A stretch of DNA of 64,000 nucleotides from Propioniciclava sp. MC1595 (GTDB taxonomy: Bacteria; Actinomycetota; Actinomycetes; Propionibacteriales; Propionibacteriaceae). The notes under the pieces were generated by a model. It was not told the DNA's origin and did no database searches. It was given only the letters and a program-made list of their open reading frames with translations. The stretch lies in assembly GCF_017569205.1 (NCBI RefSeq), contig NZ_CP071870.1:496001-560000 (forward strand), in the 5' to 3' direction. The position numbers and the translations under genes are program-made. Positions 17,333 through 62,162 of the stretch are shown piece after piece (positions within the stretch are counted from its first letter, which is position 1; the number at the start of each line of letters is the position of its first letter).

Positions 17333-18133
17333 ACGACGCAGAAGGGCACTCTCAGCAACGGTCGCGTGGTCTCCTACGCGCTGGGCGATGTCGCCAACAA
17401 CCTCGCGTTCCAGATGACGTCGATGTTCCTCATGGTCTACATGACCGACATCGTGGGGCTGTCCGCCGCAGCGGCGGGCACCATCTACGCCGTCACCAAG
17501 GTGTGGGCCGGTGTGGCCGACCTGGTCGCCGGCAGCACGGTCGACAAGGCCAACACCAAGTGGGGGCGCCTGCGGCCGTGGATCCTGTGGGGCTCCACCC
17601 CACTGGCCATCACGCTGGTGCTGTTGTTCAGCACCCCCGCCGGCCTGACCCCGACCCAGGCGTTCGTCTGGGTGCTCCTGCTCGACGCGGCCTTCCTGCT
17701 CGCGCACTCCTTCGTGAACATTCCCTACGGCTCGCTGTCGGCGGCGATGACGCAGAACTCGCTCGACCGCTCGCGCCTGTCGGGTGCCCGGTCGATCGCC
17801 TCGGCCGTCACCGGCGTGGCCCTGTCGGCGGTCATCTCGCCCCAGTTCAAGGGCATCGCCGACCAGCCGATGGAAGAGGTCCGGCGAGTGGGAGACGGGC
17901 ACCCGCTCCGAGGGCGGCTCGTACTCGATCCTGTCGTTCGTCCGCAAGTGCGGCCAGGGCCTCGGCGGCGCGCTCGGCGGCCCGATCATCGCGGCGTTCG
18001 GCTACTCGGCGGCCATCCAGGCCGGCGACCCCGGCTTCGACCGCATGGTCACCGGCCTGCGCATCGCGACCGGCTGGGTGCCGGCCGCCCTGGGCGTCAT
18101 CGCCAGCCTGATCATCTTCTTCTACCCGCTGAC
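17333..18133 (+). pseudogene. GPH-type sugar:cation symporter, start codon lost and middle deleted
   Basis: Residues from SNGRVVSYALGDVANN to FKGIADQPMEE match helices 1-6 of glycoside-pentoside-hexuronide symporters. The frame then breaks at about 17880 and continues one base over with GEWETGTRSEGGSYSILSF, RKCGQGLGGALGG and ASLIIFFYPLT, which match helices 9-12. Roughly 150 codons between the two blocks are missing. The expected start after a GAGGG ribosome-binding site reads ACG (17333-17335), not ATG. Before the break the gene would have imported a sugar or glycoside. It cannot give a working 12-helix carrier as read here; decay and assembly collapse are both possible. Confidence 0.8.
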
Positions 18134-18697
18134 GAGGCCATCGGCCGCAAGGTCGCCGAGCGCCTGGGCGTGCCCTACATCGGGCAGCGGCTCAGCTCGA
18201 CCGACATCGAGGCCGTCGAGACCTCCGGCCTCGAGCTCGAGTCCGGCTGGGACCGCTTCGTCCGGTCCCTCGCCAACCGCGGCGTCTCCGACGCCGACCT
18301 CAACCTCGGCTCCGACCAGGCCGCCGACCGGCACCTGGCCGCCCAGAACACCATCGAGGTGCTGGACGCCGTGGGCTCCGGTGGCGTCATCCTCGGCCGC
18401 AACGCCACGGTGATCCTCGGGCAGCACCCGGGCGCCCTGCACGTGCGGCTCAACGCGCCCGCCCACGTCCGTGTCGGCCGGGCCGTCGAGCTGGACGGCA
18501 TCACCGCCGAGGTGGCCGAGGAACGTCGCGAGCAGGAGGACCTGATCCGCGCCGAGCTGTCCCAGCGGCTCTACGGCTGGAACCCCAACGACGACGAGAA
18601 CTACGACGTCGTGGTCAACACCGGCCGCTACAGCCTGGACGAGGCGGCGGACATGATCATCCGCGCCTACGAGACGAGGTTCGGCACCAACCGCTGA
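18134..18697 (+). pseudogene. Cytidylate-kinase-like protein lacking its P-loop
   Basis: From 18134 the frame reads EAIGRKVAERLGVPYIGQRL, then DRFVRSLANRGV, GGVILGRNATVILGQHPGALHVRL and DAADMIIRAYETRFG-like C-terminal text. This matches the cytidylate-kinase-like (AAA_26) family from about residue 20 onward. The normal N-terminus, which carries the Walker A loop, is absent: the sequence runs directly from the last transporter helix into this domain. About 187 residues remain. Without the P-loop ATP binding is unlikely. A separate start codon is not evident. It lies 4 bp from the converging response-regulator gene. Confidence 0.75.
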
Positions 18698-18701
18698 GGC
18701 G

Positions 18702-19364
18702 TCACGCCAGCCCGTTGCGGTGGGCGATGACGACGAGCTGGGCGCGGTCGCGCGCGCCCAGCTTGAGCAGGATGTGGCTGACGTGCGTGCGCGCCGTCGC
18801 CTTCGAGATGAACAGCCGCTCGGCGAGCTCGTCGTTGTTGAACCCCTCCGCCACCAGCTCGAGCACCTCGCGCTCGCGCTCGGTGAGGTCGTCCAGGCCC
18901 GGGTGACGGGGGGACGCCGTGGGTGTGCGTCGCTGCCCCGCGAACGTGCTGATCACCCGGCGCGTCACCGTGGGGGAGAGCAGCCCCTCGCCGGACGCAG
19001 CCGCTCGGATGGCGCGCACGATGTCGTCGGGGTCGGCGTCCTTGACGAGGAACCCGGACGCCCCCGCCTCCAGGGCCGCGAACACGTACTCGTCGAGCTC
19101 GAACGTCGTCAGCATGACCACGTGGGTGCCGGCCAGGTAGGGGTCGGCGGCGATGGTGCGCAGGGCGGTGAGCCCGTCGGTGCCGGGCATCCGGATGTCC
19201 ATGAGCACCACGTCGGGCCGGTGCGCGCGTGCGGCCGCCACCGCTTCGTCGCCGTCGGCGGCCTCGCCCACCACGGTGAGGCCGGGCTCGGCCGCGACGA
19301 GGGCGCGCAGCCCCATCCGGACCAGGGCCTGGTCGTCGGTGATCAGCACGGTGATGTCGGTCAC
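18702..19364 (-). CDS. NarL/LuxR-family response regulator
   Basis: A 220-residue two-component regulator. The receiver domain holds ITDD (residues 8-11), the phospho-acceptor D56 in VVLMDIRMPG and FLVKDADPDD. The C-terminal LuxR helix-turn-helix is LTEREREVLELVAEG to ISKATARTHVSHIL. GTG 19364 overlaps the stop of the sensor kinase by 4 bp, so the pair is translated together. It likely regulates its own region; three GTACG words lie in the divergent promoter beyond the kinase. Confidence 0.92.
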   Translation of the reverse strand: MTDITVLITDDQALVRMGLRALVAAEPGLTVVGEAADGDEAVAAARAHRPDVVLMDIRMPGTDGLTALRTIAADPYLAGTHVVMLTTFELDEYVFAALEAGASGFLVKDADPDDIVRAIRAAASGEGLLSPTVTRRVISTFAGQRRTPTASPRHPGLDDLTEREREVLELVAEGFNNDELAERLFISKATARTHVSHILLKLGARDRAQLVVIAHRNGLA

Positions 19365-20533
19365 GGTCGCTCCCGGGTGGGCAGGTGGGCACGGACGAGG
19401 AAGTGGTCGCCCTCGGGCCCCGCGACGAGGGTGCCGCCGAGCGCCCCGACCCGCTCGCGCATGCCGCGCAGGCCGCCGCCCTCCGGTCCGGGGTGGGCCT
19501 GCGCGGGCAGCGGGTTGGTGACGATGATGTCCAGGCCCCGGGGCGTCCGCTCGGCGGCGACGGACGCGGGCGCGCCCGGCGCGTGCCGGATCGCGTTCGT
19601 GAGCGCCTCCTGCACCACGCGGTAGGCGGCGGCCTGGGTGGCGGCGCCGATGCCCGCGGCGTCCGGCAGCGGGGCCAGGTCGACCCGGACGCCCCCGGCC
19701 CGGACCTCGGCGACCAGCGCCGGGACCGCGGCGAGGCTGGGCGTGGGCGCCAGGGGGCCGGCGTCGTCGCCGCGGAAGGCGCCGAGGGTGTGGCGGAGTT
19801 CGGCGAGGGCGTCCTTCGACGACGTGCGGATCGCCTCGAGCGAGGTGCGCGCCTGGCCCGGGTCGGCGTCCAGCACGCGCAGGGCGACGCCGGACTGCAG
19901 GGAGATCATCGACAGCGAGTGGCCGACGACGTCGTGGATCTCGCGGGCCAGCCGCAGCCGCTCCTCGGACGCCGCGCGCTCGACCGCCTCGGCCTGCTCG
20001 CGGGCCCGGGTCTGGCGCCGGCCGATGGCGAGCGCCACGAGCAGCGTGGGGATGAGCACCCACGCGAACTGGGTGCCGATCGAGGACCACATCCGCCAGT
20101 CGGTCAGGCCGAGGCCGGGGGCGTCCCACCACGTGGCCCACAGGGCCACCAGCAGCAGGGGCAGCCAGGGCGCGGCGCGGTTGAGCCCGCGGGCGCGCAC
20201 GAGACCCAACGAGAGCACGAGCGCCGGCACGAACCCGCCGAAGGAGGGGCCGCCGAGCGCGCCGTAGGCGACGAGGCCGGCCACGCCGAGGAGGAAGCCG
20301 GGCAGCGGGCGGCGGTGCAGGAGCAGGATGCCCGCCACGACGGCGGCGATCGTCGCGATCGCCGGACCGGTGAAGGCCGCGTACGCCTCGGGTGGGGGCG
20401 GCTCCATGGGCATCGGGTCGGTGCGCCACGATGACTCGCCGTAGTGCTGGGCGAAGGGGGCCACGCGCCAGGCGAACGCGAGCGCGACCGCCGAGCCGAC
20501 GGCCCCGGCCACGGTGCGCACGCGTCGGTCCAT
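19361..20533 (-). CDS. Sensor histidine kinase (HisKA_3 type)
   Basis: A 390-residue membrane kinase partner of the NarL-type regulator. Five to six hydrophobic segments fill residues 8-172. The dimerisation motif ERLRLAREIHDVVGHSLSMI places the phosphorylated His at H200. The ATPase domain has EALTNAIRHAPG (N box) and GGLRGMRERVGALGG. No large extracytoplasmic domain exists, so the signal is probably sensed in the membrane. ATG 20533 lies 7 nt after TAGCCT (20541-20546 on the minus strand), a leaderless arrangement; an upstream in-frame ATG has no support. Confidence 0.9.
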   Translation of the reverse strand: MDRRVRTVAGAVGSAVALAFAWRVAPFAQHYGESSWRTDPMPMEPPPPEAYAAFTGPAIATIAAVVAGILLLHRRPLPGFLLGVAGLVAYGALGGPSFGGFVPALVLSLGLVRARGLNRAAPWLPLLLVALWATWWDAPGLGLTDWRMWSSIGTQFAWVLIPTLLVALAIGRRQTRAREQAEAVERAASEERLRLAREIHDVVGHSLSMISLQSGVALRVLDADPGQARTSLEAIRTSSKDALAELRHTLGAFRGDDAGPLAPTPSLAAVPALVAEVRAGGVRVDLAPLPDAAGIGAATQAAAYRVVQEALTNAIRHAPGAPASVAAERTPRGLDIIVTNPLPAQAHPGPEGGGLRGMRERVGALGGTLVAGPEGDHFLVRAHLPTRERP

Positions 20534-20574
20534 GCGTCGAAGGCTACGACCTCGAGGGGCCGCCGGCATCGGTC

Positions 20575-20610
20575 TGCGTACGTATCGCGGGGTACGTCGG
20601 GATGCGTACG
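20575..20610. promoter_or_regulatory. Repeated TGCGTACG words in the divergent promoter of kinase and SHOCT gene
   Basis: TGCGTACG occurs at 20575-20582 and 20603-20610, 28 bp apart, with GGTACGTC between them. They lie between the divergent sensor-kinase and SHOCT genes, where the cognate NarL-type regulator could bind. The repeats are seen; the binding is inferred. Confidence 0.4.
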
Positions 20611-20676
20611 CGGGGCTCGTCGAGGTTCATCGCCGGGGCCGATGGACGCGACGCGCCGCCGGCGTTCGATGGAGCC

Positions 20677-21030
20677 ATGAACGAAGCACTGCTCCCCCTG
20701 CACGTGACCGTCGTCGGCGGCCACTTCCTGCCCGGCCTCCTGGCCCTGATCCTCTGGATCGTCCTGTTCAAGGTGTTCTTCCGTTGCGGTGGCCTCGGGC
20801 CCGTCCGCTGGGACCCTCGCCGGGGTGCCGGCGAGGAGGGGTCGGCGGGCCGCCCCCGCCACGGCTTCGGCCCCGGTGCCGCCGGGCACCGCCCCCCGTG
20901 GGCGCAGCAGTCGCCCGAGGAGGCGGCGCTGGCGACGCTGGCCGAGCGGCTGGCGTCCGGTGACATCACGCCCGACGAGTACCTCGAGCGCTCCAGCGCT
21001 CTGCGCGAGGCCCGGGACCGGGGGGAGTGA
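20677..21030 (+). CDS. Small membrane protein with C-terminal SHOCT domain
   Basis: A 117-residue protein: one membrane helix (HFLPGLLALILWIVLFKVFF, about residues 16-35), a Gly/Pro/Arg-rich linker and a C-terminal SHOCT motif, ATLAERLASGDITPDEYLER. SHOCT domains are short helical modules often at the ends of membrane proteins and thought to aid oligomerisation. It is divergent from the sensor kinase and overlaps or abuts a second SHOCT gene. Both may be targets or accessory parts of the two-component system; that is inference from position. Confidence 0.72.
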   Translation: MNEALLPLHVTVVGGHFLPGLLALILWIVLFKVFFRCGGLGPVRWDPRRGAGEEGSAGRPRHGFGPGAAGHRPPWAQQSPEEAALATLAERLASGDITPDEYLERSSALREARDRGE

Positions 21031-21035
21031 GCGCC

Positions 21036-21257
21036 ATGTGGATCATCGCCCTGGTGGCGTTCGTGGTGGCGCTCTCCCGCGTCGGGCGCATCGGCCCCTT
21101 CGCCTGGGACCCGGCCTGGCGCACCCGTCGTGCGGCCCTGTGCGCGCCGGCGTCCCCGTCGGACCAGGCCGAACGCATCCTGGCCCGCCGCCTCGCCGAC
21201 GGTGACCTCACCGTCGACGACTACTACGAGCGGCTGAGCCTGCTCCAGTCCCGCTGA
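21036..21257 (+). CDS. Second small SHOCT-domain membrane protein
   Basis: A 73-residue protein with one hydrophobic segment (MWIIALVAFVVALSRVG) and a C-terminal SHOCT motif, AERILARRLADGDLTVDDYYERLS. It resembles a shortened paralogue of the gene just upstream: both share GRIGPFAWDPAWR-like or GLGPVRWDPRR text after the helix. The ATG at 21036 has GGGGGAG 8 nt upstream; a GTG at 21027 overlapping the previous stop is the alternative. A strong hairpin follows. Confidence 0.7.
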   Translation: MWIIALVAFVVALSRVGRIGPFAWDPAWRTRRAALCAPASPSDQAERILARRLADGDLTVDDYYERLSLLQSR

Positions 21258-21267
21258 CCCCGTCGAA

Positions 21268-21308
21268 ACCGTTCGCCCGGCGCCGCATCCCGGCACCGGG
21301 CGGACGGT
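21268..21308. terminator. Long imperfect hairpin between convergent genes
   Basis: ACCGTTCGCCCGGCGCCG pairs with CGGCACCGGGCGGACGGT with one G-T pair and one mismatch, forming an 18-position stem between the SHOCT gene and the convergent lipoprotein gene. Confidence 0.75.
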
Positions 21309-21329
21309 GGCGTGTGCGGCCGACCGGGA

Positions 21330-21728
21330 TCACGCGAGCGAAGTCGCGAGGGGATTGCCCGCGGCGTCGGTGCCCGGGTCGCGGGTCAGGAGGGCGACCA
21401 CCTGGGTCAACGAGCGACCGCGCCGGGAACCCGCCACCGTGTAGAAGTCGAGCGCCCCGGTGTAGGCGATCCGGACCCGGTTGCCCGCCAGCCAGACCTC
21501 GACGCTGCCGGTGATCGCGCCCACCTCGGTGGTCATGACCCCGCCCGGTGGGGTGTCGAACCGGGCGCGGGTGAGGCGGCGCTGGACCGACGGCTTCTCC
21601 CGGGCGGCGCGTGCGGTGGGCGACGCGAGGCCGGCCACAGGTACCGGGGGCGCGGGGGCCGCCGGGGCCACCATGGGCGTACAGGCGACCAGGGCGACGA
21701 GGACGTGGAACAGGACAGGGGAGCGCAT
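21330..21728 (-). CDS. Putative small lipoprotein
   Basis: A 132-residue protein with an N-terminal export signal. LVAC at residues 13-16 fits a lipobox with Cys16 as the lipidation site, though the n-region has a single Arg. The mature part contains GSVEVWLAGNRVRIAYTGALDFYTV and SLTQVVALLTRD. I recognise no family. AGGAGG sits 6 nt before the ATG. It may be an envelope-bound binding or structural protein; no neighbour indicates its role. Confidence 0.62.
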   Translation of the reverse strand: MRSPVLFHVLVALVACTPMVAPAAPAPPVPVAGLASPTARAAREKPSVQRRLTRARFDTPPGGVMTTEVGAITGSVEVWLAGNRVRIAYTGALDFYTVAGSRRGRSLTQVVALLTRDPGTDAAGNPLATSLA

Positions 21729-21834
21729 GGCGTACCTCCTGGGGGTGGGTGGTGGACGTGTCCTCGACGCTAGGGGCACGCCCGACCCGGACGCACGAGA
21801 TCCGCACGCCACCCTGTGGAAAACCGCCCGAGGG

Positions 21835-22359: not shown

Positions 22360-22378
22360 GAACCCGGACGCCCCGCCC

Positions 22379-26219: not shown

Positions 26220-26579
26220 GGATCGGTCGTGTCCGGCATCGGCAACGTGTACCGCGCCGAACTGCTCTGGCGCGCAGGGATCGACCCGCACACCCCCGGA
26301 TCGTCCATCGACGCCGAGACGCTGGCCGCCCTCTGGGACGACGCCGGCGACCTGCTGGCCGTCGGGCTCGGGGCCGGCTGGATAGTCGCGCACCCCGATC
26401 AGGTCGCCGAGGCGAAGCGCCTGCTCGCCCGCGGCGAAGACGTCCCCCGGTGGGCGAAGCGCTACGCGGTCTACCGGCGACGCGGCCTCCCCTGCCCGCG
26501 CTGCGGGACGCCCGTGGCGTCCGAACGGCTGGGGCTCCAGACGATGTACTGGTGCCCCGGCTGGCAGGAGTACCCGTAG
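26220..26579 (+). pseudogene. Fpg/Nei DNA glycosylase, C-terminal half only
   Basis: The frame reads GSVVSGIGNVYRAELLWRAG, which is the helix-two-turn-helix of formamidopyrimidine/endonuclease VIII-type glycosylases, and ends with the zinc finger PCPRCGTPVASERLGLQ to YWCPGW (the final Cys/Gly pattern is partly atypical). The catalytic N-terminal Pro and beta-sandwich domain, about 150 residues, are missing and nothing upstream encodes them. A GTG at 26229 could start a 116-residue fragment, but it would have no catalytic residue. It is best read as a remnant of a base-excision repair gene. Confidence 0.82.
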
Positions 26580-28038: not shown

Positions 28039-28641
28039 TCAGCCGTTCAGCAGCGTGCTGAAGTCGGGGACGTTGGCGAACTCGTCAGCGTAGTCGGCGG
28101 CCGGGTTCTTCGCGATGAGCTCGGCGAACTGCGTGCCGGCGCGCCGGACGCGACGCATGAGGCCGGACTCGGTCGAACCCCAGTCCTCGGTCGTGGCGAA
28201 CACGCCGGTCGGCGCGACGGCGGCCTTGAGGTAGAAGAACATCGGCAGCATGGTCTGGTCGATCGCCAGGCTGTGCCGGGCCGTGCCGCCGGTGGCGGCC
28301 ATGAGCACCGGACGCCCCTTGAGCACGCCCTCGTCCAGCAGGTCGAAGAACAGCTTGAACAGGCCGTTCACGCCCGCGTTCAGCACGGGGCTGACCGCGA
28401 TGACGCCGGACGCCGTGCCGACCAGGTCGAACGCCGCCTGCAGCGTCTTGGTCGGGACGTGCGAGGAGTAGTAGGTGGCCAGGTCGACGGCGAGGTCGCG
28501 CAGCTCGAGGACCTTGACCTCGGTCGCCGGGGTGCCGCCGGCGGTCATGGCCTTGACGGTGGCCTCGGCGAGGCGGTCGCCGAGCATGCGGGAGCTGGAC
28601 GGCGTCCCCATGCCGGCGCTGATGACGAGGAGGTGGGACAT
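28039..28641 (-). CDS. NADPH-dependent FMN reductase, CE1759-like, partner of the LLM enzyme
   Basis: A 200-residue flavodoxin-fold reductase. Seen: LLVISAGMGTPSSSRMLGDR with the flavin phosphate loop, GVIAVSPVLNAGVNGLFKLFFD and VLMAATGGTARHSLAID. This is the CE1759-type family that is nearly always encoded beside a CE1758-type luciferase-like monooxygenase, to which it would supply reduced flavin. The partner lies 1 bp upstream on the same strand, but has lost its 5' end. GAAGGGAG within the end of the partner gene acts as ribosome-binding site. This gene itself is complete. Confidence 0.88.
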   Translation of the reverse strand: MSHLLVISAGMGTPSSSRMLGDRLAEATVKAMTAGGTPATEVKVLELRDLAVDLATYYSSHVPTKTLQAAFDLVGTASGVIAVSPVLNAGVNGLFKLFFDLLDEGVLKGRPVLMAATGGTARHSLAIDQTMLPMFFYLKAAVAPTGVFATTEDWGSTESGLMRRVRRAGTQFAELIAKNPAADYADEFANVPDFSTLLNG

Positions 28642-28642
28642 G

Positions 28643-29686
28643 TCAGTTGGCTCCCTTCAGGGCGGCCTCGTAGGGCGACTGGCCCGTGACGTCGTCGACG
28701 CCCACGGTGCGGTGCTCGGTCAGCGTGCCGGCGACGCGGGCCTTCTCGACCAGCGACGCGTGGGTCGGCGCCTCCGGGATGTGCGCGGGGCGGCCCTCGG
28801 CGTAGCCCTTGCGCATCTCGGGCAGGATCTCGCCGAGCAGGTCGAGCTGCTCGAGGACGGTCTTGAGCGGCAGCCCGGCGTGGTCGATGAGGAAGCCCTG
28901 GCGCTGGTAGTGGCCGACGTGCTCGACCATGCCGAGGTAACGCTCCAGCACCTGCTGCGGCGAGCCCACGGTCAGCGGGGTCACCTCGGTGAAGTCCTCC
29001 ATCGACGGGCCGTGGCCGTAGACCGGGGCGACGTCGAAGTAGGGGCGGAACTCGTTCACGGCGTCCTGGCTGTTCTTGCGCATGAAGAACTGGCCACCGA
29101 GGCCGACGATCGCCTGGTCCGCCTGGCCGTGGCCGTAGTGCTCGTAGCGGCGGCGGTACAGGTTGACCATCTGGGCGGTGTGCTCGATGTTCCAGAAGAT
29201 GTTGTTGTGGAAGAAGCCGTCGCCGTAGTAGGCGGCCTGCTCGGCGATCTCGGGGGTGCGGATCGAGCCGTGCCACACGAACGGCGCGACGCCGTCGAGC
29301 GGGCGCGGGGTCGAGGTGAAGCCCTGCAGCGGCGTGCGGTGCTTGCCCTGCCAGTCGACGACGTCCTCGGTCCACAGCCGACGCAGCAGCGCGTAGTTCT
29401 CGACGGCCAGCGCGACACCGGCGCGGATGTCCTTGCCGAACCAGGGGTAGACCGGGCCGGTGTTGCCGCGGCCGAGCATGATGTCGACGCGACCGTCGGC
29501 GAGGTGCTGGAGCATCGCGAAGTCCTCGGCGATCTTGACCGGGTCGTTGGTCGTGATCAGCGTGGTCGCGGTCGACAGCAGGATCTTGTCGGTCTGCGCG
29601 GCGATGTAGCCCAGCGTCGTCGTGGGCGAGCTGCTGAAGAACGGCTCGTTGTGGTGCTCACCGATGGCGTAGAAGTCGAGACCCAC
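28643..29686 (-). pseudogene. LLM-class flavin-dependent oxidoreductase, CE1758-like, 5' end lost at an IS
   Basis: 347 codons remain. They begin at GLDFYAIGEHHNEPF, which in full-length relatives lies about 40 residues into the protein, and continue with TTTLGYIAAQTDKILLSTA, LADGRVDIMLGRGNTGPVY and a complete C-terminus. The insertion sequence starts directly before this point, with an in-frame TAG two bases away. The missing N-terminus and promoter are not found on the far side of the element, where thymidine phosphorylase ends. The first beta-strand of the barrel is lost, so activity is doubtful. The coupled reductase gene downstream may have lost its promoter too. Confidence 0.85.
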
Positions 29687-29689
29687 CTA

Positions 29690-30436
29690 GGGCGTGTCGC
29701 GTAACTGATTTGGGTGGTGGGGGTCAGGGTTGTCTTTGTGACCAGGAGTCCTCAGTTCAGTGACGAGATGTGGGCGCGGATTGAGCCGTTGATGCCGCGT
29801 GGGGGCGCGAAGGGCGGCCGTCCGTGGAATGACCACCGGCGGACGGTGGAGGGCATCTGTTGGCGGTTGCGGACGGCACGATCGTGCGGGCCCACAAGCA
29901 CGCTGCCGGCGCCCGAAAAGGGGGATCCACCGAACTACAAGAATCCTCGGGCCGAACCAGCTGATCACGCCTTGGGGCACTCCCGTGGCGGGTGGACGAC
30001 GAAGTCCCACGCCCTGGTCGACGCCTCCGGTCACCTGTGCTCGCTGGTGGTCACCCCGGGTCAGGCCGGTGAGAACCCCCGCCTGTTGGATGTGATCGAT
30101 CTTGCCCCTCACCGGGTTGTCCGGGTGGTCGCGGACAAGGCCTACTCCCATCCCTCGACCCGAACCGAGCTCCGGCGGCGAAGGATCAAGGTGACCATCC
30201 CCGAACGCTCCGACCAGATCGCCCGTCGCAAGGCCAAGGGCAGCCGCGGCGGTCGCCCACCTGCCTTCGATCCCACCATCTACAAGGGCAGGAACGTGGT
30301 GGAACGCTTCTTCAACCGGATCAAGGAGTTCCGCGCCATCGCCACCCGCTACGACAAACTCGCTCGCAACTACCGCGCCGGCCTCGTCCTGGCCAGCACC
30401 ATCATCTGCCTACGAGACCAGTTACGCGACACGCCC
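29690..30436. mobile_element. IS5-family insertion sequence (IS427-like), internally deleted
   Basis: About 747 bp bounded by 17-bp perfect terminal inverted repeats, GGGCGTGTCGCGTAACT (29690-29706) and AGTTACGCGACACGCCC (30420-30436). CTAG lies at both outer borders (29687-29690 and 30436-30439), giving a TA or CTAG target duplication, as in IS5-family groups with CTAG targets. The single transposase gene inside is disrupted, so it is not autonomous. Its left end cuts the LLM oxidoreductase gene; its right end meets the stop of thymidine phosphorylase. Confidence 0.92.
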
Positions 30437-38506: not shown

Positions 38507-38594
38507 GCCCGCCACTGTGTCACGGCCGCCCGACAGTTTCTGCACGCGTTCCCCTGTCGGGGCGTCGATCGCTCCCCTGGATTGCGGGTGGGCG

Positions 38595-39065
38595 ACCCTC
38601 GAGTTCTTCGAGATCGGCATCGCCGATCTCCCGCTCTACAACCGCGACCTCGACGCGAACTACCCGCCCGAGGCCATCGCGCTGAAGGACGCCATCCACA
38701 GCGCGCACGCGATCCTCTTCGTGACCCCCGAGTACAACCGCTCCATCCCGGGTGCACTGAAGAACGCCATCGACTGGGCGTCGCGCCCGTGGGGCCAGAA
38801 CGCCTTCGTGAACCTGCCGGCCGCCGTCATCGGCGCGTCCCCGGGCAACCTGGGCACCGCCCTGGCCCAGCACAGCCTCCGCGCGGTGCTGAGCTTCCTC
38901 AACACCCGCCAGATGACCTCGCCGGAGGCCTATGTCACCTTCGACCCGGCCGACTTCGGGCCCGACGGGCAGGTGAGCGACCGCACCCGCGACTTCCTGA
39001 CCGGCTTCGTCACCGAGTTCCGCGACCACATCGAGCGCGTGCTGACGGTCCTGCCGCGGCTCTGA
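38595..39065 (+). pseudogene. NAD(P)H-dependent FMN reductase-like, N-terminus missing
   Basis: Homology to flavodoxin-like NADPH:FMN reductases begins abruptly at TLEFFEIGIADLPLYNRDLD and continues through LFVTPEYNRSIPGALKNAID and SPGNLGTALAQHSLRAVLS to a normal end. The first ~35 residues, containing the FMN phosphate loop (GSLRKGS-like), are absent, and the 88 bp between here and the divergent recQ start contain no suitable start codon or ribosome-binding site. The remainder is about 156 codons. It looks like a 5'-deleted gene rather than an alternative start. Confidence 0.78.
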
Positions 39066-45600: not shown

Positions 45601-45983
45601 TCAGCCGGTCGCCTTCGTGATCAGCTCGACCATCTTCTTCCGCACCGCCGGGGTCACCTTCGTCACCGCGAACCCGGTGGCCCACAGGTCACCGTCGTCG
45701 AGCGCGGCGTTGTCGTTGAACCCGAGCGTGGAGTAGCGCGTCCCGAACTTGCCGGCCGGCTGCACGAACACGAGCACGGCCCCGTCCCGCTCCCACGCGG
45801 GCATGCCGTACCAGGTGTCGCGGCGATCTCCTGGTCGGGACCCTCCAGCTCGGCGACCTTGTCCAGGAGCGCCTGCAGGTTGTCGGCCTTCTTCTTGCCG
45901 CCCTTCTCGGCGCGCAGCTCGGCCGCGCGTTCCTTCATCGCCTCGCGTTCGGCCTCGGAGAAGCCGCCGTCCTTCTTCGCCAT
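45601..45983 (-). pseudogene. DUF1801-like protein, internal deletion and frameshift
   Basis: The start AKKDGGFSEAEREAMKERAA to LLDKVAELEGPDQEIAA matches the N-terminus of an actinobacterial DUF1801-type protein. The end, in a different frame, DTWYGMPAWERDGAVLVFVQ to MVELITKATG, matches its C-terminus. The two are joined at about 45825 with about 25 codons missing. Neither frame alone gives a normal protein. A ribosome-binding site is unclear. Homologues are small stand-alone proteins of unknown role. Confidence 0.78.
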
Positions 45984-46009: not shown

Positions 46010-46774
46010 TCAGCACCAGCCCCGGTCCGCGAGCCAGCGTTCGGCCAGATCGGTCCACTGGGCGACCTCGGGCTCCTCGTCGGCCAGGCCGAGCCCGTGG
46101 CGTCCGGACCGGAACACATGCCCCTCGAACGGCACCCCGGCCACGGCCAGCGAGGTCATCAGCGACAGCGCGTGCAGGGCCGGGACTGTCGCGTCGTCGC
46201 TGGTGGTCCAGATGAAGAGGTCGGGGAGCTCCTCCTCCTCGGGCGGGGTCACCCGGGTGGCGACCGACAGGGCGGCGCGCACCTCCTCGGGGGCGTCCTC
46301 GCCGAGCAGGTTGTCAGCCGAGTCGGTGTGCAGGTTCGGCAGCCGGCCGAGCATCGTCTCGCGCAGGTCGGTGACCGGGTAGGCCAGCAGCGCGGCGTCC
46401 GGACGCCCCGCGAACGTCAGCGGGTCGGCCCCGGGCACGTCGGGGGAGTCGGTCGCCAGCAGCGCGGCCAGGTGCCCCCCGGCCGAGAAGCCGAGGACGC
46501 CGACGCGGCGACGGTCCACGGGCAGGGGCGTGCCGCCCGTCCGGAGCGCCCGCAGGGCCGCGCGTGCGTCGTGCAGCGGACGCGGCCACACGTGGTACCC
46601 GACCGCGTAGTGCAGCACGGCGGCGTGCAGGCCGAGTTCGTTCAGCCACGCCGCGACCGGCGCCCCCTCGTGGGCGGCGAGGTGGTGGTACCCGCCGCCC
46701 GGGACCACGAGGACCGTGGGTGCCGTCGCGTCCCCGGCGGGGTGGAACGTCCAGTCGAGAGCCATGGCAGTCAT
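46010..46774 (-). CDS. Alpha/beta hydrolase (acetyl esterase-like)
   Basis: A 254-residue hydrolase. The oxyanion motif is VLVVPGGGYHHLA, the nucleophile elbow GFSAGGHLAAL, the acid D in TTSDDATVP and the His in SGRHGLGLADE. The layout is that of bacterial feruloyl/acetyl esterases (Aes/BD-FAE). No signal peptide. The ATG at 46774 overlaps the stop of the monooxygenase gene upstream by 4 bp, so it was part of that operon; a second ATG three codons later is possible. The gene looks intact. Confidence 0.84.
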   Translation of the reverse strand: MTAMALDWTFHPAGDATAPTVLVVPGGGYHHLAAHEGAPVAAWLNELGLHAAVLHYAVGYHVWPRPLHDARAALRALRTGGTPLPVDRRRVGVLGFSAGGHLAALLATDSPDVPGADPLTFAGRPDAALLAYPVTDLRETMLGRLPNLHTDSADNLLGEDAPEEVRAALSVATRVTPPEEEELPDLFIWTTSDDATVPALHALSLMTSLAVAGVPFEGHVFRSGRHGLGLADEEPEVAQWTDLAERWLADRGWC

Positions 46775-48030
46775 CCTGCCGTAGGGCTACCCTCCCCGGC
46801 GTTCGTCAGGCGGCGCACGGCCACGGCAAAGTCGTCCAGGGCCTCGACCGAGTCCGCGGCGGCGGCCACGTAGCGGTCGGGCCGGACGAGGACGGCCTCG
46901 GCTGCGAGGCGTCCGAGCCAGTCGCGCCCGGACTCGGAGTCGACCGCGACGACCCGGGGGGCGACGGTCCCGGCGAGGCGCGCCGCGGCGTCCGGGGTCG
47001 CGATGACCGCCCAGTCGTAGCCCACGAGGTCGTCGGCGCGGGTGCCGTCGGCCATGAAGGGCTGCTCGCCGATGTGCCCGGCGCGCTCGTCGTCGGCGTC
47101 CCACGCGCCGGCGCCCAGGCGCGGGGCCGGGGTTGTGAAGCCCTCGGGGTTGGCGCGCATGCGCAGGTCGCGCTCGCGGGCCACGTCGACGCGGTGGTCG
47201 AGATCACCGAGCCGAGGCGGACCGCGGTCTCGATGAAGGTGCGCACGTGGGGCGAGCGCTCGGACTCGTAGGTGTCGAGCAGCTCGGCGTCCGCGCGGCC
47301 CTCGACGACCTCGACGAGCTTCCACGCCAGGTTGGCCGCGTCGCGCACGCCGGCGCACATGCCCTGGCCCATGAAGGGCGGGGTCTGGTGGCAGGCGTCC
47401 CCGGCGAGGAACACCCGGCCCTTCGCCCAGCCGCGCGCCACCACCGAGTGGAAGGTGTAGACGGCCGGCCGCTCGATCGTGGCCTCGGCCGGCGTCAGCC
47501 AGGGCTCCAGCATCTCCCAGACGCGCTCGGGGGCCACCATCTCGGCGGCGTCCTCGTGCTCGTGCAGCATGAGCTCCCAGCGGCGACGGTTGTGCGGGCC
47601 GGGCACGTACGTGGCCGGACGCCGCGGGTCGCAGTACTGCACGGACTCCTCGTCGAGGTCGGGGTCGGCCCCGTCCTTCAGCAGGCAGTCGACGACCAGC
47701 CAGCGCTCGTGGGACTTCAGGTCGTCCAGCGTGGTGCCCATGATGCGGCGCACGAGCGAGCGGGCGCCACCAGTCGATGAGGGTGTGGCCCTCGGCGTTG
47801 ATGAAGTGCATGCGGGCGGCGACCCGGAGGTCGGGCTCGAGTTCCTCGGCGATGCCGCCCGTCTGGAACAGGCGCATGGCCTCCCCGTCGAACTGGATCG
47901 CGCGGGGGAGCGGGTAGATCTCGGTCTCCTGCTCCACCACGACGACCCGCAGGCCGCGCAGCGCGAGCAGGTTCGCCAGGGTCGCGCCCACGGGGCCGTA
48001 GCCGATGACGGCCACGTCGTAGCTGGTCAC
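46771..48030 (-). pseudogene. MhpA-type FAD-dependent aromatic hydroxylase, two frame breaks
   Basis: Three blocks match 3-(3-hydroxyphenyl)propionate-type hydroxylases. VTSYDVAVIGYGPVGATLAN to GHTLIDWW is the N-terminus with GxGxxG. The second, in another frame, runs from MGTTLDDLKSHERWLVVDCL through GDACHQTPPFMGQGMCAGVR (GD motif) to RLGSVIST. The third returns to the first frame with RVDVARERDLRMRANPEGF to the end. About 90 codons are missing at the first break (near 47760) and a small indel sits at the second (near 47195). GTG 48030 follows AGGAGG. It would have hydroxylated a phenolic substrate. Confidence 0.85.
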
Positions 48031-48059
48031 CTCGCCCACCTCCTGGTCCGCCGCCCGGG

Positions 48060-48863
48060 TCACTTCTCGTCGACGACGGTGTTGCGCAGGATGCCGAGGT
48101 TGGTGACCTCGACCTCCACCACGTCACCCTCGTCGAGCAGGCCCTGGGGCTCCATGAAGAAGCCGACGCCACCGGGGGTGCCGGTCACGACCACGTCGCC
48201 GGCGTTGAGGCGGGTGAACGCCGTCACGTGCGCGAGGAGCTGGGGGATCGAGAAGTACAGGTCGGCGAGCGTGGCGGCCTGGCGCAGCTCGCCGTTGACG
48301 CGGGTCTCGAGCTTCATCGAGTCGAGGTCGTCGATGTCGGCGGCCGGCACGAAGTAGGGACCGAAGGCGCCGCTGTCGGGGAAGTTCTTGCCCGGGATCC
48401 ACTGCGTGGTGGCGCGCTGCCAGTCGCGTGCGGTGAAGTCGTTGTAGATGCCGTAGCCGGCGACGAAGTCGAAGGCGTCGTCCTCGGAGACCTTGTAGGC
48501 GTCCTTGCCGATGACGAGGGCGACCTCGCCCTCGTAGTCGTAGTAGTGGGTGACGGACGGCTTCACGGCCGGGGCCAGGTGGCCCATCTGGGTGTCGGCG
48601 AAGCGGGTGAACACGGTGGGGACGACCTGGCCGGTGCGGCCGGTCTCGTTCTGGTGGGAGACGTAGTTCACGCCGATGCAGATGACCTTGCCCGGGTCGC
48701 CGATGACCGGCAGGTAGGTGATGTCGTCCTCGGACGCCGAGGGTGCACCCGCCCAGGCGCCGTCGGCGACCGGCACGACACCGTCGGCAACTGGTACAAC
48801 ATGTGGAGCCCGCGCCGCCCGCTCGACTTCCGCGAGTTCGGCATCGCGCCGGCCGAGAAGCAC
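48060..48863 (-). CDS. Fumarylacetoacetate hydrolase family protein, 5' end rearranged
   Basis: From about residue 35 on, this is a typical FAH-fold hydrolase: PGKVICIGVNYVSHQNETGR, YYDYEGEVALVIGKDA with metal-ligand Glu, YNDFTARDWQ, GKNFPDSGAFGPYFV and GDVVVTGTPGGVGFFMEP. Such enzymes hydrolyse or decarboxylate ring-cleavage products, consistent with the FAD hydroxylase next door. The first ~25 residues are antisense to the tail of a plus-strand gene (48786-48866) and match no FAH, so the true N-terminus has been replaced. The catalytic domain is complete, yet expression is uncertain. The GTG/TGA overlap with the hydroxylase suggests one operon. Confidence 0.72.
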   Translation of the reverse strand: MLLGRRDAELAEVERAARAPHVVPVADGVVPVADGAWAGAPSASEDDITYLPVIGDPGKVICIGVNYVSHQNETGRTGQVVPTVFTRFADTQMGHLAPAVKPSVTHYYDYEGEVALVIGKDAYKVSEDDAFDFVAGYGIYNDFTARDWQRATTQWIPGKNFPDSGAFGPYFVPAADIDDLDSMKLETRVNGELRQAATLADLYFSIPQLLAHVTAFTRLNAGDVVVTGTPGGVGFFMEPQGLLDEGDVVEVEVTNLGILRNTVVDEK

Positions 48864-48866
48864 TGA
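48786..48866 (+). pseudogene. C-terminal tail of an unidentified plus-strand gene
   Basis: Twenty-six codons and a stop, GNWYNMWSPRRPLDFREFGI and APAEKH, read as a typical protein C-terminus. Upstream of it on this strand there is only antisense of the FAH gene. The text resembles tails of aromatic-ring dioxygenases in my judgement, which would fit the cluster, but I cannot name the family. It shows that a deletion joined a plus-strand gene end to the FAH gene. Confidence 0.5.
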
Positions 48867-56980: not shown

Positions 56981-57070
56981 GGGACGTAGGGACGAATCTG
57001 TGGACAAGTGGAGGAACTTATCCACACCGACCTGAACCCCTTGACGTGCCCGACATGGACGCTACGTCCC
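56981..57070. repeat. Inverted-repeat-bounded segment with two DnaA boxes
   Basis: GGGACGTAG (56981-56989) and CTACGTCCC (57062-57070) are perfect 9-bp inverted repeats around a 72-bp core. In the core TGTGGACAA (56999-57007) and TTATCCACA (57018-57026) are two inward-facing DnaA-box sequences 10 bp apart. The outer right repeat coincides with the point where the isomerase-like gene loses homology. It could be an element end, a DnaA-controlled promoter or a titration site. Confidence 0.6.
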
Positions 57071-57918: not shown

Positions 57919-57937
57919 GGTCACCACCTCCTTGCCA

Positions 57938-57963
57938 CCTAAGGTAAACCTAACGGTATTAGG
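57938..57963. promoter_or_regulatory. CCTAA/TTAGG operator candidate of the TetR gene
   Basis: CCTAA (57949-57953) and TTAGG (57959-57963) are separated by 5 nt, with another CCTAAGG at 57938-57944. They lie between TetR and the TPP enzyme gene end and cover the probable TetR promoter. Autoregulation is the simple inference; similarity to an iron box is superficial. Confidence 0.45.
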
Positions 57964-57984
57964 CGCGCAGGGGGTGGCAACGGA

Positions 57985-59682
57985 TCAGGGCACCTCGACC
58001 GGCGGAACCATCGCGGCGGGGGCGGGGTCCAGGGCGAGCACGTCCACCTCGATCACCGACGGGCGCGGCTTCTTCAACGCCTTCTTCAAGGCCTTGTCGA
58101 ACGCCTCGGGGTCACCCACGAGCGTGTGGCGCAGGCCGAACGCCCGGGCGAGCCGGCCGAAGTCGGGCGTGGCCAAGTCGACGCCGTGGCGCGGGTCGCC
58201 GGCCGCGGCCTGCATGTTGCGCAGCACCCCGTAGCCGCCGTCGTTGAACACCACGAGCACGACGTGCGGCTTCTCACCGGCCAGCACGGCCAGCTCGCCC
58301 AGGTGCACCGCGAGCCCGCCGTCGCCGACCATCGCGAGCACGGGAACCTCGGGGCGCGCGACCGCGGCGCCGACCGCCATCGCCAGCCCCTGCCCGATGC
58401 CGCCGCCCGCGGCGAACACGTTGTCGGTGGCGTCGTGCACGGCCAGCAGCCGGTTGCCCCACGAGCTGCCGGGGATCGTCACGTCCCGCACGATGGGCGA
58501 GTGCCGTGGCAGCCGCTTCCGCAGCGCGTCGCAGATCGGCGCGTACGCCCCGATCGCGCCCTTCAGGTTCTTCCGTGCGGATGCCGCGGCCTCGGCCACG
58601 CGGCCGGTCCAGTCCGGGTCGATGGCGATCTCGCCGAGCGCCTCGACCAGCGCCGGTACGGCGACAGTGGCGTCCGCCTGCACCCCCACCGTGACCGGGA
58701 AGTTCCGGCCCAGGGCGTCGGCGTCCAGATCGATCTGAACGTGCGTGGCCGGCAGCGGCAGGTCGCCGTTGCGGGTCTCGCTGGGGCGCAGGTGGCTGCC
58801 GATCGTGAGCAGGCAGTCGGCCTCGGCGATGAGCTCGGCGACCGCCTCGTCGGAGGCGAAGTTGCCGATGACGAGGGGGTGGTCCTCGGGGACGGAGCCG
58901 CGGCCGTTCGTCCCGGTCAGCACGCCGGCGCCCCACACCTCGGCGAGCACGGTCAGGGGAGGGCCGACGCGGCGGGCGCCGCCGCCGGCCCAGATCAGGG
59001 GCCGCTTCGCCTCGCGCAGCACCTTGGCCGCGCGCTCGACGTCGCGCTGGGCACCGGTGCGGACGGCCGGCTCGCGCTCGTCCACCTTGTTCTGGGCGTC
59101 GGGATCGGCGGTGTACTGCAGGTCGATCGGCCAGTCGACGCTGACCGGCCCGTGAGGTGCGGTGTCGAGCAGCCGCACGGCGTCGGTGAGTACCGCCCGC
59201 GCCTGGCGGGCGGTCTCGATCCGCATCGCGTGCTGGGAGACGGCCTGCAGCATCGCCAGCTGGCGCGGCACCTCGTGGTAGGCGCCGGTGTGTTCGCCGA
59301 TCAGGTTCGCGTTGACGTTGCCGGTGACGTGCAGCACCCGGCTGCCCGCGGTCAGCGCCTCGAGCATCGACCCGGCCGCGTTGCCCGCGCCGGTGCCAGT
59401 GGAGGTGAGGGCGACGCCGATGCGCCCGGTCGTGCGGGCGTAGGCGTCGGCGGCGTTGATCACGGCGGCCTCGTGGCGCATCGGGACGAACCGCAGCTCG
59501 CGGTCGACCGCCTGCACCAGCGGCAGGTTGTGGATGCTGATCACCCCGAACGCGACGTCGACGCCGGCGTCCTTCATCACCTGCACGAGGATGTCGCCCC
59601 CGTTCGGGCCCTCGCTGCCCAGGGACTCGGCGGGGACCTCGTGGCCCTCGGTGGACGTGTGCATGGCTGCCTTGTCGTTCAC
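57985..59682 (-). CDS. Thiamine pyrophosphate-dependent enzyme (acetolactate synthase-like)
   Basis: A 565-residue TPP enzyme of the benzoylformate decarboxylase/acetolactate synthase superfamily. The catalytic Glu is E71 in RHEAAVINAADAYAR; the PP domain has VGDGGLAVHLGELAVL and VVFNDGGYGVLRNM, which bind Mg-TPP; the linking GGGIGQGLAMAVGAAVA is near 430. The middle domain lacks clear FAD-binding residues. It may act on a 2-oxo acid; no pathway genes are adjacent. GTG 59682 is used because TAGGGT (59690-59695) lies 7 nt upstream; ATG 59664 is an alternative. Confidence 0.83.
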   Translation of the reverse strand: MNDKAAMHTSTEGHEVPAESLGSEGPNGGDILVQVMKDAGVDVAFGVISIHNLPLVQAVDRELRFVPMRHEAAVINAADAYARTTGRIGVALTSTGTGAGNAAGSMLEALTAGSRVLHVTGNVNANLIGEHTGAYHEVPRQLAMLQAVSQHAMRIETARQARAVLTDAVRLLDTAPHGPVSVDWPIDLQYTADPDAQNKVDEREPAVRTGAQRDVERAAKVLREAKRPLIWAGGGARRVGPPLTVLAEVWGAGVLTGTNGRGSVPEDHPLVIGNFASDEAVAELIAEADCLLTIGSHLRPSETRNGDLPLPATHVQIDLDADALGRNFPVTVGVQADATVAVPALVEALGEIAIDPDWTGRVAEAAASARKNLKGAIGAYAPICDALRKRLPRHSPIVRDVTIPGSSWGNRLLAVHDATDNVFAAGGGIGQGLAMAVGAAVARPEVPVLAMVGDGGLAVHLGELAVLAGEKPHVVLVVFNDGGYGVLRNMQAAAGDPRHGVDLATPDFGRLARAFGLRHTLVGDPEAFDKALKKALKKPRPSVIEVDVLALDPAPAAMVPPVEVP

Positions 59683-59689
59683 CCTCGCC

Positions 59690-59695
59690 ACCCTA
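59690..59695 (-). promoter_or_regulatory. -10 element for the TPP enzyme gene
   Basis: TAGGGT on the minus strand ends 7 nt before the GTG at 59682, again the leaderless spacing. Confidence 0.45.
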
Positions 59696-59745
59696 GGTGC
59701 CCCTGACAAGCGGGGTCATCACCCGAAAGGGCCCCAAGGAGGGGA

Positions 59746-60105
59746 TCAGCGGTCGCGCTGCTCCCGCAGGCGCTCCTGCTCGGCGACGACCTCGCGGTGG
59801 GTCTCCCGCTCGCGGACGAGCCACGCGGGCGGGTCGGCGAGCAGCGCGCCGACCTGGTCGGCGTCCAGCGGCTCGGTCATGCGGGCGCGCGCCAGGCCCG
59901 ACTTCGAGACGCCCAGCTTGGCGGCCACCACGTCGCGCGGGAACGGGCCGTTGCGGCGCAGGTCGACCAGCCACTGCGGCGGGTCCTCGCGCAGGGCGTC
60001 CAACTCGGCACGGGTGATCGGCGTCGTCCGGAACTCCTCGGGCGCCGCGCCCAGCAGGATGCCGAGCTTGCTGGCCGCCGTCGCGGGCTTCATGGTTTGG
60101 CTCAC
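59746..60105 (-). CDS. DUF5997 family protein
   Basis: A 119-residue protein with the DUF5997 pattern: MKPATAASKLGILLGAAPEE, FRTTPITRAELDALREDPPQ, WLVDLRRNGPFPRDVVAAKL. The family is restricted to actinobacteria, has a helix-turn-helix-like middle part (AAKLGVSKSGLARARM) and no assigned role. The GTG at 60105 lies 6 nt after TAGGCT. The LysR-like gene is divergent, only 34 bp away; the pairing of DUF5997 with that gene is seen in other actinobacteria to my knowledge. Confidence 0.83.
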   Translation of the reverse strand: MSQTMKPATAASKLGILLGAAPEEFRTTPITRAELDALREDPPQWLVDLRRNGPFPRDVVAAKLGVSKSGLARARMTEPLDADQVGALLADPPAWLVRERETHREVVAEQERLREQRDR

Positions 60106-60111
60106 GGGCGC

Positions 60112-60133
60112 AGCCTAACCGGCGCGGTAGCCT
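60112..60133. promoter_or_regulatory. Back-to-back -10 elements of two divergent leaderless genes
   Basis: TAGGCT on the minus strand (60112-60117) is 6 nt from the DUF5997 GTG; TAGCCT on the plus strand (60128-60133) is 6 nt from the LysR-like GTG. Only 10 bp separate the two hexamers. Confidence 0.6.
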
Positions 60134-60139
60134 GCCGGG

Positions 60140-60808
60140 GTGAGCGAGTCCCCAGCCACCCGGCCCACGAGCCCGGACGCCCTCCGCGTGGGCCACGTGC
60201 CCGGCGTCACCCTCACCAAGTGGCGCACCCGCTGGGACGAGCGCCTGGCCGCCCGGCTGGACGTCGTCGAGGTCACCGAGGCCGACCAGCGCCGCGTGCT
60301 CGTCGACGACGCGGTGGACCTGTGCTTCGTCCGGCTGCCCATCGACCGTGAGGGCCTGCACGCGATCCCGCTCTACGACGAGGTGACCGTGGCCTGGGTC
60401 TCCAAGGACCACCCGGTCGCGGCCTACGGCGAGGTCACCCTCGCCGACCTCGCCGACGAAACCCTCCTCACCGACTTGGACGCCGTGGCCATCGACCGCG
60501 TCAACGCGGGTGCGGTGCTGCTGGTGCCGATGTCCGTGGCCCGCTCGGCGAGCCGCCGCGACCTCGTGCACCGGCCCGTGACCGACGCCGAGCCGACCTC
60601 GATCTCCCTGGCCTGGCGCACCGACAACGAGCACCCGCTGATCGACGAGTTCATCGGTATCGTTCGCGGGCGCACCGCGAACTCCTCGCGCACGCAGGCC
60701 GAGCGAGCGGCGAGCACTCCCAAGCCCAAGCCCCAGCGCTTGTCGAGCCCGGGCAAGCGGCCCGGGAACGCCCCGCGGCCCCCGAAGGTCAGGAAGAAGC
60801 GCCGCTGA
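60140..60808 (+). CDS. LysR substrate-binding-domain protein without DNA-binding domain
   Basis: A 222-residue protein. Residues 14-165 resemble the effector-binding domain of LysR regulators (LRVGHVPGVTLTKWRTRW, VDLCFVRLPIDREGLHAIPL, YDEVTVAWVSKDHPVA). The usual N-terminal helix-turn-helix is missing and there is no room upstream for it. The C-terminal 50 residues are basic and low complexity (KPKPQRLSSPGKRPGN to KVRKKRR), possibly a nucleic-acid-binding tail. GTG 60140 follows the leaderless pattern. Its last 20 bp overlap the convergent PAP2-like gene. Confidence 0.8.
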   Translation: MSESPATRPTSPDALRVGHVPGVTLTKWRTRWDERLAARLDVVEVTEADQRRVLVDDAVDLCFVRLPIDREGLHAIPLYDEVTVAWVSKDHPVAAYGEVTLADLADETLLTDLDAVAIDRVNAGAVLLVPMSVARSASRRDLVHRPVTDAEPTSISLAWRTDNEHPLIDEFIGIVRGRTANSSRTQAERAASTPKPKPQRLSSPGKRPGNAPRPPKVRKKRR

Positions 60809-61640
60809 GTTCGCGGATGAACCGCTGCACGGTCGCGGGCCACGGCTCGTCGGCGCCCTGCTCCAGCAGCCGGGCGTAGGTGGCGGCGATGTGTGCGCGG
60901 ATCTCGGCGCCCGCCTCGAGGTCGGGGAACAGGCGGTCGGTGAAGGCCGCCACGTCGGCGGGGGAGACCTCGCTCGGCGTGATCCGGGTCATCGCGTACA
61001 GCGCGGCCGGCAGGCAGTTGACGCTGTGCTGCTTGATGAACAGCACCGACTCGGTGATGTCCACCGCGCCGTCGAACAGCTCGGTGGTGAGGGCCGAGCG
61101 GTCGGCGTCCGGAACGCCGAGTTCGGCGAACGCGCGCCGGTACTGCGTCCAGGCCAGCACCACGATCATCACGTGCAGGCTGGGCACGCACAGCAGGTGC
61201 GGGTCGAACAGGTGGATCGCCAGGAACCGCCCGCGGTAGTACCTCGGCCGCCGCGTCGTGGTCATGCCCGCGCGGTAGACCTCCGCGGCCTCGCGGTAGC
61301 AGCGGTCGATCAGGCCCAGGAACCGGACGCCGTGGGTGACGAACGCCCGCGGGCCGTGGTGGCGGGCGATCCAACCGAGGGGGCGGATCCAGAAGGAGAT
61401 GAAGTCGAGGTAGGTCGCGATCCGCTCCGGCGTGAACGGGATCCGCGCGTCCAGCGGGTGGTCGACGTCGACCACGGGCACGCGGCGCAGGCCCAGCTTC
61501 ACCGCGAACTGCAGGGCGAAGAAGTCCTTGAGCACCGTGCCGACGAACCGGGCCACGCCGAGGGCGGTCGCGGGGTGGCGCAGCGCGCGCAGGGCGATCG
61601 CGGGCACGGACTCGCGGCGGGTGGTGGCAAGGTCGGGCAC
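60789..61640 (-). CDS. Hypothetical protein with PAP2-like PSLH motif
   Basis: A 283-residue protein. HLLCVPSLHVMIVVLAWTQY contains a P-S-x-H block like the second motif of the PAP2 phosphatase superfamily, and LFIKQHSVNCLPAALYAMTR resembles its third motif with a catalytic His. The first motif (K-x6-R-P) is not clear. Some hydrophobic segments are present but no strong multi-pass pattern. A lipid- or phosphate-ester role is a guess. GTG 61640 is used as TAGGGT (61648-61653) lies 7 nt upstream; GTG 61649 is an alternative. Confidence 0.55.
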   Translation of the reverse strand: MPDLATTRRESVPAIALRALRHPATALGVARFVGTVLKDFFALQFAVKLGLRRVPVVDVDHPLDARIPFTPERIATYLDFISFWIRPLGWIARHHGPRAFVTHGVRFLGLIDRCYREAAEVYRAGMTTTRRPRYYRGRFLAIHLFDPHLLCVPSLHVMIVVLAWTQYRRAFAELGVPDADRSALTTELFDGAVDITESVLFIKQHSVNCLPAALYAMTRITPSEVSPADVAAFTDRLFPDLEAGAEIRAHIAATYARLLEQGADEPWPATVQRFIRELSGASS

Positions 61641-61697
61641 GGCGTCCACCCTACGGTCGCCCGCCGGTGGCGGGCGGGGGCGTCCGGATCGGCCGCG

Positions 61698-62162
61698 TCA
61701 CCCAGTGGTGCGCAGCACCCGCCAGCTGTAGAGGTGGTCGGCGCAGGTCTGCTCGAGGTGGGCGAGCGTGGGCCGCACCTCGACCCCGGACGCCTCGCGG
61801 GCCGGGTCGGCCAGCGCCCCGGCGACGTCGGTGATCGGGGCCGCCCGGTTGGCGTAGGCCAGCGACACGTGCGGGTGGAACGCGCCCTCGAACACGTCCT
61901 CGGCGACCGCGGCCGCGGCGTCCGGGTCGACCTCGTCGGTGAACCCGATCGGGGTGAGCGTGAGGTGCAGCCACGGCGGCGGGACGGCGTCCAGGGCCTC
62001 GACGCCGTCGATCGCGTGGCGCACCGGTGCGGTCGCGTGGGCCATCCCGGTGCCGTCGAACACGAGGTGGAAGGTGAGCTGGCGACGTCCGCCGGCCCAG
62101 TGGGAGCGGCGCGCCCAGTGGTCCTCGGTGTGGGTGACGCTGTCGCCGGTGACCAGGAACAT
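61698..62162 (-). CDS. 2'-5' RNA ligase-like protein, probably internally shortened
   Basis: A 154-residue protein with both histidine motifs of the 2H phosphoesterase fold: WLHLTLTPIGFTDEV and FHPHVSLAYANR. In full-length relatives about 55-60 residues separate VAEDVFE-type text from the second motif; here they are adjacent (EGAFHPHVSLAY). The frame is kept, so a shortened protein could be made, but part of the beta-sheet would be lost. ATG 62162 is preceded by GGGGCG. I call it a CDS with reservation. Confidence 0.65.
   Translation of the reverse strand: MFLVTGDSVTHTEDHWARRSHWAGGRRQLTFHLVFDGTGMAHATAPVRHAIDGVEALDAVPPPWLHLTLTPIGFTDEVDPDAAAAVAEDVFEGAFHPHVSLAYANRAAPITDVAGALADPAREASGVEVRPTLAHLEQTCADHLYSWRVLRTTG

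Follow-up and report, generated by a model that had tools for sequence, protein, structure and literature searches.

Does a run of genes with missing blocks in one stretch of a bacterial chromosome record real deletions, or does it record segments that an assembler dropped? The question is raised by a 64-kb window of Propioniciclava sp. MC1595 (bases 496,001-560,000 of a single 3.43-Mb contig; genome completeness 100, contamination 0.22; GC content of the window 72.7%), in which an earlier note, made from the letters alone, had listed about eleven genes with cleanly missing blocks. It had left two explanations standing, frequent deletions or a collapsed assembly, and had warned that the second would affect every call in the window. 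Comparison with relatives favours real deletions in dispensable genes over assembly collapse: we put at roughly 85% the probability that these are young pseudogenes, made by short deletions in a dispensable stretch of the chromosome and not by a fault of assembly, and wholesale assembly damage is unlikely. Ten of the eleven listed names, corresponding to nine genes, were borne out in some form, and a tenth damaged gene that had not been listed, the tail of a probable dioxygenase, lies among them.

Comparison with relatives and control stretches

The window was aligned at the DNA level with twelve genomes of the same genus (G001-G012; the genome of the window itself is G000), and the relatives' proteins were aligned to the window. 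Damage was judged against orthologues in same-genus genomes, against a profile in the case of Fpg/Nei, and against a sister copy of the insertion sequence (IS) in the case of the transposase; the dioxygenase tail was judged by similarity to distant proteins only. For the counts we applied one automatic rule, under which a gene is broken if flagged against every relative that aligned, and mixed genes, intact against at least one relative and flagged against another, were scored intact (three control genes and two window genes). The controls were three other G000 stretches, at 0.60, 1.50 and 2.70 Mb, drawn from a roughly evenly spaced sample. A fourth stretch (L244, 0.70 Mb) yielded too few matches for scoring and does not enter the counts; the results cover the window and the three scored controls.

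Among the 47 window genes that have orthologues, this rule found 6 broken; in the control stretches it found none (0/15, 0/18 and 0/16, together 0/49; Fisher p = 0.012). A fault reaching every call is not what these numbers describe: 41 of the 47 window genes were intact, as were all 49 elsewhere. The six broken genes leave out LLM, Fpg and the transposase, because for these either a short frame in a relative was scored intact or a full-length orthologue was lacking. For seven genes (symporter-kinase, LLM, FMN reductase, DUF1801-like, hydroxylase, FAH and 2H) a longer intact orthologue was found in relatives. The earlier note had proposed comparison with a close relative, and longer orthologues were seen for most of its genes.

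For one of the mixed control genes, at 0.60 Mb, the alignment leaves out the first 38-41 residues of the relatives' frames (318-320 amino acids); the matching G009 DNA continues there with no gap, so we do not read this as a deletion. An early run on two directed stretches had flagged two rows away from stretch ends, both intact against other relatives. A first control with scattered stretches of G009 contained too few pairs and was superseded by the directed searches of four G000 stretches: G009 proteins gave 15 pairs with 4 flagged against the G000 sample (2 at stretch ends, 2 of transposase families in L245) and 18 pairs with 1 flagged against the window, and G000 and window proteins gave 36 pairs with 8 flagged (3 at stretch ends) against the G009 sample. 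Within L245, positions 2780-3722 (about 902.8-903.7 kb of G000) hold adjacent fragments matching ISL3-type and Mutator-type transposases of G009.

Identity to the relatives is a mosaic, 92-97% in tracts such as those matching G012:C104, G012:C132, G009:C4 or G009:C40 and roughly 70-91% elsewhere; the high-identity tracts, to G009 or G012, lie at 18.7-21.3, 26.4-29.7, 36.7-41.4, 44.1-48.8 and 53.2-54.7 kb of the window. This alternation suggests that species of the genus recombine frequently, or that there are mixed assemblies or metagenome-assembled genomes among those compared. Two contigs of G012 (C104 and C127) relate to the same window genes, at about 96% and about 78-83% identity, and G012 may be a mixed metagenome-assembled genome or may carry paralogous tracts.

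Lesions in the individual genes

The ten damaged genes are collected in Table 1. Their lesions generally remove the start, the reading frame or an essential part of the protein, as is expected of pseudogenes.

Table 1. Damaged genes of the window, with the reference against which each was judged
Feature	Position in window	Strand	Reference
GPH symporter (MFS_2)-cytidylate-kinase-like fusion gene, two deletions (17882-17884, 18133)	17330..18691	+	Relatives' longer frames
Fpg/Nei remnant, reduced to the C-terminal H2TH end and zinc finger	26223..26579	+	NCBIfam profile coverage
LLM (Bac_luciferase) flavin monooxygenase lacking first 41 codons	28643..29686	-	382-aa copy in G009:C4
IS5-family element, transposase frame lacking 154 bp near 29873	29691..30435	+	Sister copy, about L242:6579-7489
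FMN_red gene lacking its start	38592..39065	+	128 bp in G012:C132 against 2 here; 185-aa frame in G007:C453
DUF1801-like gene, 46-bp deletion and frameshift at 45819	45604..45983	-	Longer relative
MhpA-like FAD hydroxylase, 233-bp deletion and one-base frameshift near 47191	46774..48039	-	G012 orthologue
FAH-family gene lacking first 40 codons	48063..48788	-	283-aa frame in G012:C104
Probable extradiol (VOC) dioxygenase gene, final 25 codons only, joined to FAH	48789..48866	+	C-terminal similarity
2H phosphoesterase (2_5_RNA_ligase2), about 54 codons between H motifs lost in frame	61710..62162	-	One relative

The first of these had been listed as two genes, a sugar symporter and a cytidylate-kinase-like gene. 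Both deletions were borne out, but in relatives the two parts form a single frame of 673 (G012), 680 (G006) or 684 (G008) amino acids; the G012 copy, the one scanned, contains the Pfam domains MFS_2 and Cytidylate_kin2. The first deletion measures 512 bp, made up of a gap of 509 bp and an overlap of 3 bp (CGG), and is the same against G006, G007 and G012; G008 has 540 bp where the window has 31. The second measures 139 bp against G012 or 148 bp against G006, with G007 similar. Against both G012 and G006 the total lost is divisible by three. A frame of 479 amino acids remains, but in the segment between the deletions it departs from the ancestral reading frame. The fusion locus of G012 is at L057:8698-10719 (G012:C197), and the architecture of 673-684 amino acids may matter for sugar uptake.

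The block missing from Fpg/Nei was confirmed: the C-terminal part alone is left, covering positions 173-274 of the 276 in the NCBIfam fpg profile, and this truncation was judged by profile coverage only. In G009:C4, in a tract of 97% identity, even less of the gene survives, beside an identical left flank of 70 bp, so the gene is truncated in a second, separate genome of the genus, through one shared truncation or two events. The last zinc-finger cysteine is Trp in the window and Cys in G009.

For the LLM enzyme, the loss of sequence stood; the gene breaks at an IS junction and does not lack an internal block. Homology ends at 29688, where the IS begins, and the lost codons were found neither beyond the element nor in the other G000 stretches fetched. 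Either an IS-linked deletion or recombination between IS copies would explain this break. In G012:C118 about 92 bp are missing at the 3' end of LLM where the window (28641-28736) keeps them, a reciprocal block loss in a relative.

The adjoining element has perfect 17-bp terminal inverted repeats with CTAG on both sides, and its transposase matches NF033580 at 174.5 bits (cut-off 110). With a DDE transposase and terminal inverted repeats it is an IS5-family element; it differs from the family in lacking 154 internal bp and in standing where LLM homology ends. The loss, as listed, was borne out: a 99%-identical sister copy in the same genome (about 406.6-407.5 kb of G000) keeps the 154 bp, a length summed from coordinates. 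Both breakpoints share GGACGG exactly (the 6 bp were judged by eye), and these bases belong to a longer, imperfect repeat of some 20 bp. The sister copy has two overlapping transposase frames, an arrangement that occurs in IS elements using programmed frameshifting.

Three further losses also held up. FMN reductase, compared with two relatives at the DNA level, lacks its start and about 35 codons. The DUF1801-like gene has lost its frame with the deleted block, though the label itself is weak, the intact relative scoring 19.7 bits (cut-off 27.2). The gene listed as RNA-ligase-like, a 2H phosphoesterase, has its loss in frame against a single relative of 66-68% amino-acid identity, and we are least sure of this lesion among the pseudogene calls. 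For the DUF1801-like, hydroxylase, FAH and 2H genes, the comparison that showed the block loss was in most cases with a single relative whose frame is full-length. The one listed gene that found no support was the isomerase-like one at 57067: the open reading frames tried gave no match in Pfam or NCBIfam and the one searched in PDB gave none there, matches among the fetched loci were only 22-27 bp long, and the coding signal was weak, over 53 codons.

A putative aromatic-degradation cluster

The hydroxylase had been thought to lack blocks at two sites. The loss at 47760 was borne out, but the site at 47195 is a one-base frameshift and no second block. At the deletion (47761-47768) the relative carries an 8-bp direct repeat, CGGGCGCC, at both ends, and the window protein lacks the middle of FAD_binding_3. 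The G012 orthologue scores 580.6 bits (cut-off 390) against the NCBIfam subfamily model of 3-(3-hydroxyphenyl)propionate hydroxylase. Next to it, the FAH gene lacks its first codons at 48788, within a few bases of where the earlier note had placed the loss (about 48786).

Past 48788, 78 bases encode 25 residues and a stop codon, and this is the tenth damaged gene. The tail matches the C-termini of proteins in Kocuria, Citricoccus, Arthrobacter and related actinobacterial loci at 58-74% over 19-24 residues. Five loci (L172, L174, L175, L180 and L185) have the match immediately ahead of their FAH gene; in others, the best-scoring ones among them, several kilobases separate the two. The Arthrobacter locus (L180) encodes a protein of 307 amino acids in the Glyoxalase/dioxygenase superfamily, for which the HpaD and catechol 2,3-dioxygenase NCBIfam models were best, both below cut-off; its gene order is dioxygenase, FAH, FAD hydroxylase (the last two named from sequence, not scanned). 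The tail was not found in G012:C104, where the gene facing FAH encodes a flavin monooxygenase-like protein. Hydroxylase, FAH and dioxygenase stand together in the Arthrobacter locus, and the three genes broken side by side in the window probably belonged to a single aromatic-degradation cluster.

Breakpoints and age of the lesions

Exact repeats at the breakpoints examined were 8 bp (47761), 3 bp (17882), 0 bp (45819) and about 6 bp (the transposase); at random breakpoints, repeats of at least 8 bp occur in 0.05%, of at least 6 bp in 0.4% and of at least 3 bp in 7.7% of cases. Ku was found in 12 of the 13 genus genomes searched, namely G000 and 11 of the other 12 (partial in G007). This mix of repeats, together with Ku, fits illegitimate recombination by slippage or by end-joining, which are indistinguishable here. 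In the sequence of events that we propose, single non-essential genes in a dispensable, recombination-rich stretch would be inactivated one by one, presumably once selection on them was lost, by short deletions (46 to 512 bp), an IS5-linked break and a one-base frameshift, with one larger deletion that would have joined FAH to the dioxygenase tail. Illegitimate recombination is the probable source of the deletions, with slippage or Ku-dependent joining acting between short repeats or none, and living cells would carry the resulting junctions.

Three of the broken genes, all in the tract matching G012:C104, supplied six fragments in which the ratio of nonsynonymous to synonymous differences per site (pN/pS) was 0.07-0.23; it was 0.16 in an intact neighbour, with small counts of 1-7 amino-acid-changing differences per fragment. 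Relaxed selection, with a ratio near 1, was not seen in these six fragments. Such low ratios indicate that selection went on acting on the genes through most of their divergence from that relative, and the inactivation would therefore be recent.

Comparable decay has been described elsewhere. In Salmonella, 346 of 378 pseudogenes had a single inactivating mutation, and deletions of at most 20% of the frame predominated among these (141/346; PMC2916853). Short deletions dominate in the window too, but two of its genes have two lesions each, and in several cases more than 20% of the frame is deleted. Within bacterial species, a major share of the diversity ('microdiversity') consists of short variable segments ascribed to illegitimate recombination (PMC2884548). 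As there, the segments in the window are present or absent between genomes and mostly away from known mobile or repeated elements; in contrast, our comparison is between species of a genus, and our cases were chosen for breaking genes.

Alternative explanations

Several observations weigh against real decay as we read it. The window was picked for its lesions, which biases its comparison with the control stretches, and those stretches may contain more conserved genes; three control genes scored intact were flagged against at least one relative, and the matches in the fourth stretch searched were too few to score. The breakpoint at 45819 shares 0 bp, and the overlap at 18133 is 4 bp in G006 and 0 in G012. 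No junction was seen exactly twice, so an error at any single one is possible. The tested fragments still look constrained, which fits young pseudogenes and would also fit artefacts. Segments dropped or collapsed by the assembler, or another sequencing artefact, would indeed yield such fresh-looking lesions with the signatures of selection retained, and one deletion lies inside an IS with at least two copies, where reads could mislead. Assembly errors are a recognised source of false pseudogenes (PMC11017572). We nevertheless hold an artefact to be unlikely. Clean conserved stretches beside damaged accessory genes are what selection predicts and what a random assembly fault does not, and this favours real deletions. 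The exact breakpoint repeats, of 0-8 bp, are too short to collapse; those in the IS lie in the imperfect repeat of about 20 bp. Decay is favoured as well because G009 carries the shorter Fpg remnant and the window copy has further lost the zinc-finger cysteine, because the symporter-kinase gene and the hydroxylase have two lesions each, because hydroxylase, FAH and dioxygenase tail, damaged next to one another, are likely to belong to one pathway, and because the sister IS in the same genome retains the block that the window copy lost.

That the short forms are functional proteins of ordinary length variation is very improbable. The 2H gene, which keeps both H motifs, and the symporter-kinase gene, with its remaining long frame, are the cases that best suit this explanation, although in the latter the segment between the deletions is out of frame. 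Most of the others lose start, frame or catalytic half: Fpg is without its N-terminal part and one zinc ligand, the middle of the FAD-binding domain is gone from the hydroxylase, and FMN reductase and FAH have no starts. A special case of real decay, whose odds overlap with it, is a lineage-specific deletion mutator, arising for instance through a changed repair system and producing deletions of 50-500 bp much faster than in sister species. Several fresh deletions within about 45 kb and a broken Fpg/Nei repair gene would suit such a mutator; Fpg/Nei enzymes act on oxidised bases, not on deletions, and on this mechanistic ground we ruled out Fpg loss as the cause. In the relatives' contigs over the same region, 11 of 139 genes were flagged, with no detectable difference from the window's 6 of 47 (p = 0.38); for several of the 11 the fault seems to lie with the query, its gene being frameshifted or broken or its start over-long, so the count is probably too high and the true rate in relatives may be lower. 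Since Ku is common to the genus and selection alone can explain the clean core stretches, we regard a mutator as quite unlikely. If there were one, accessory pathways would die soon after recombination brings them in while selection keeps the core clean.

Significance

Real but ordinary gene decay, a known kind of thing, is the most likely account of this window. Most of its gene calls are thereby cleared of the suspicion of assembly damage, and ten genes are better annotated as probable pseudogenes. Among them, what looks like one aromatic-degradation cluster may have been caught early in its loss.

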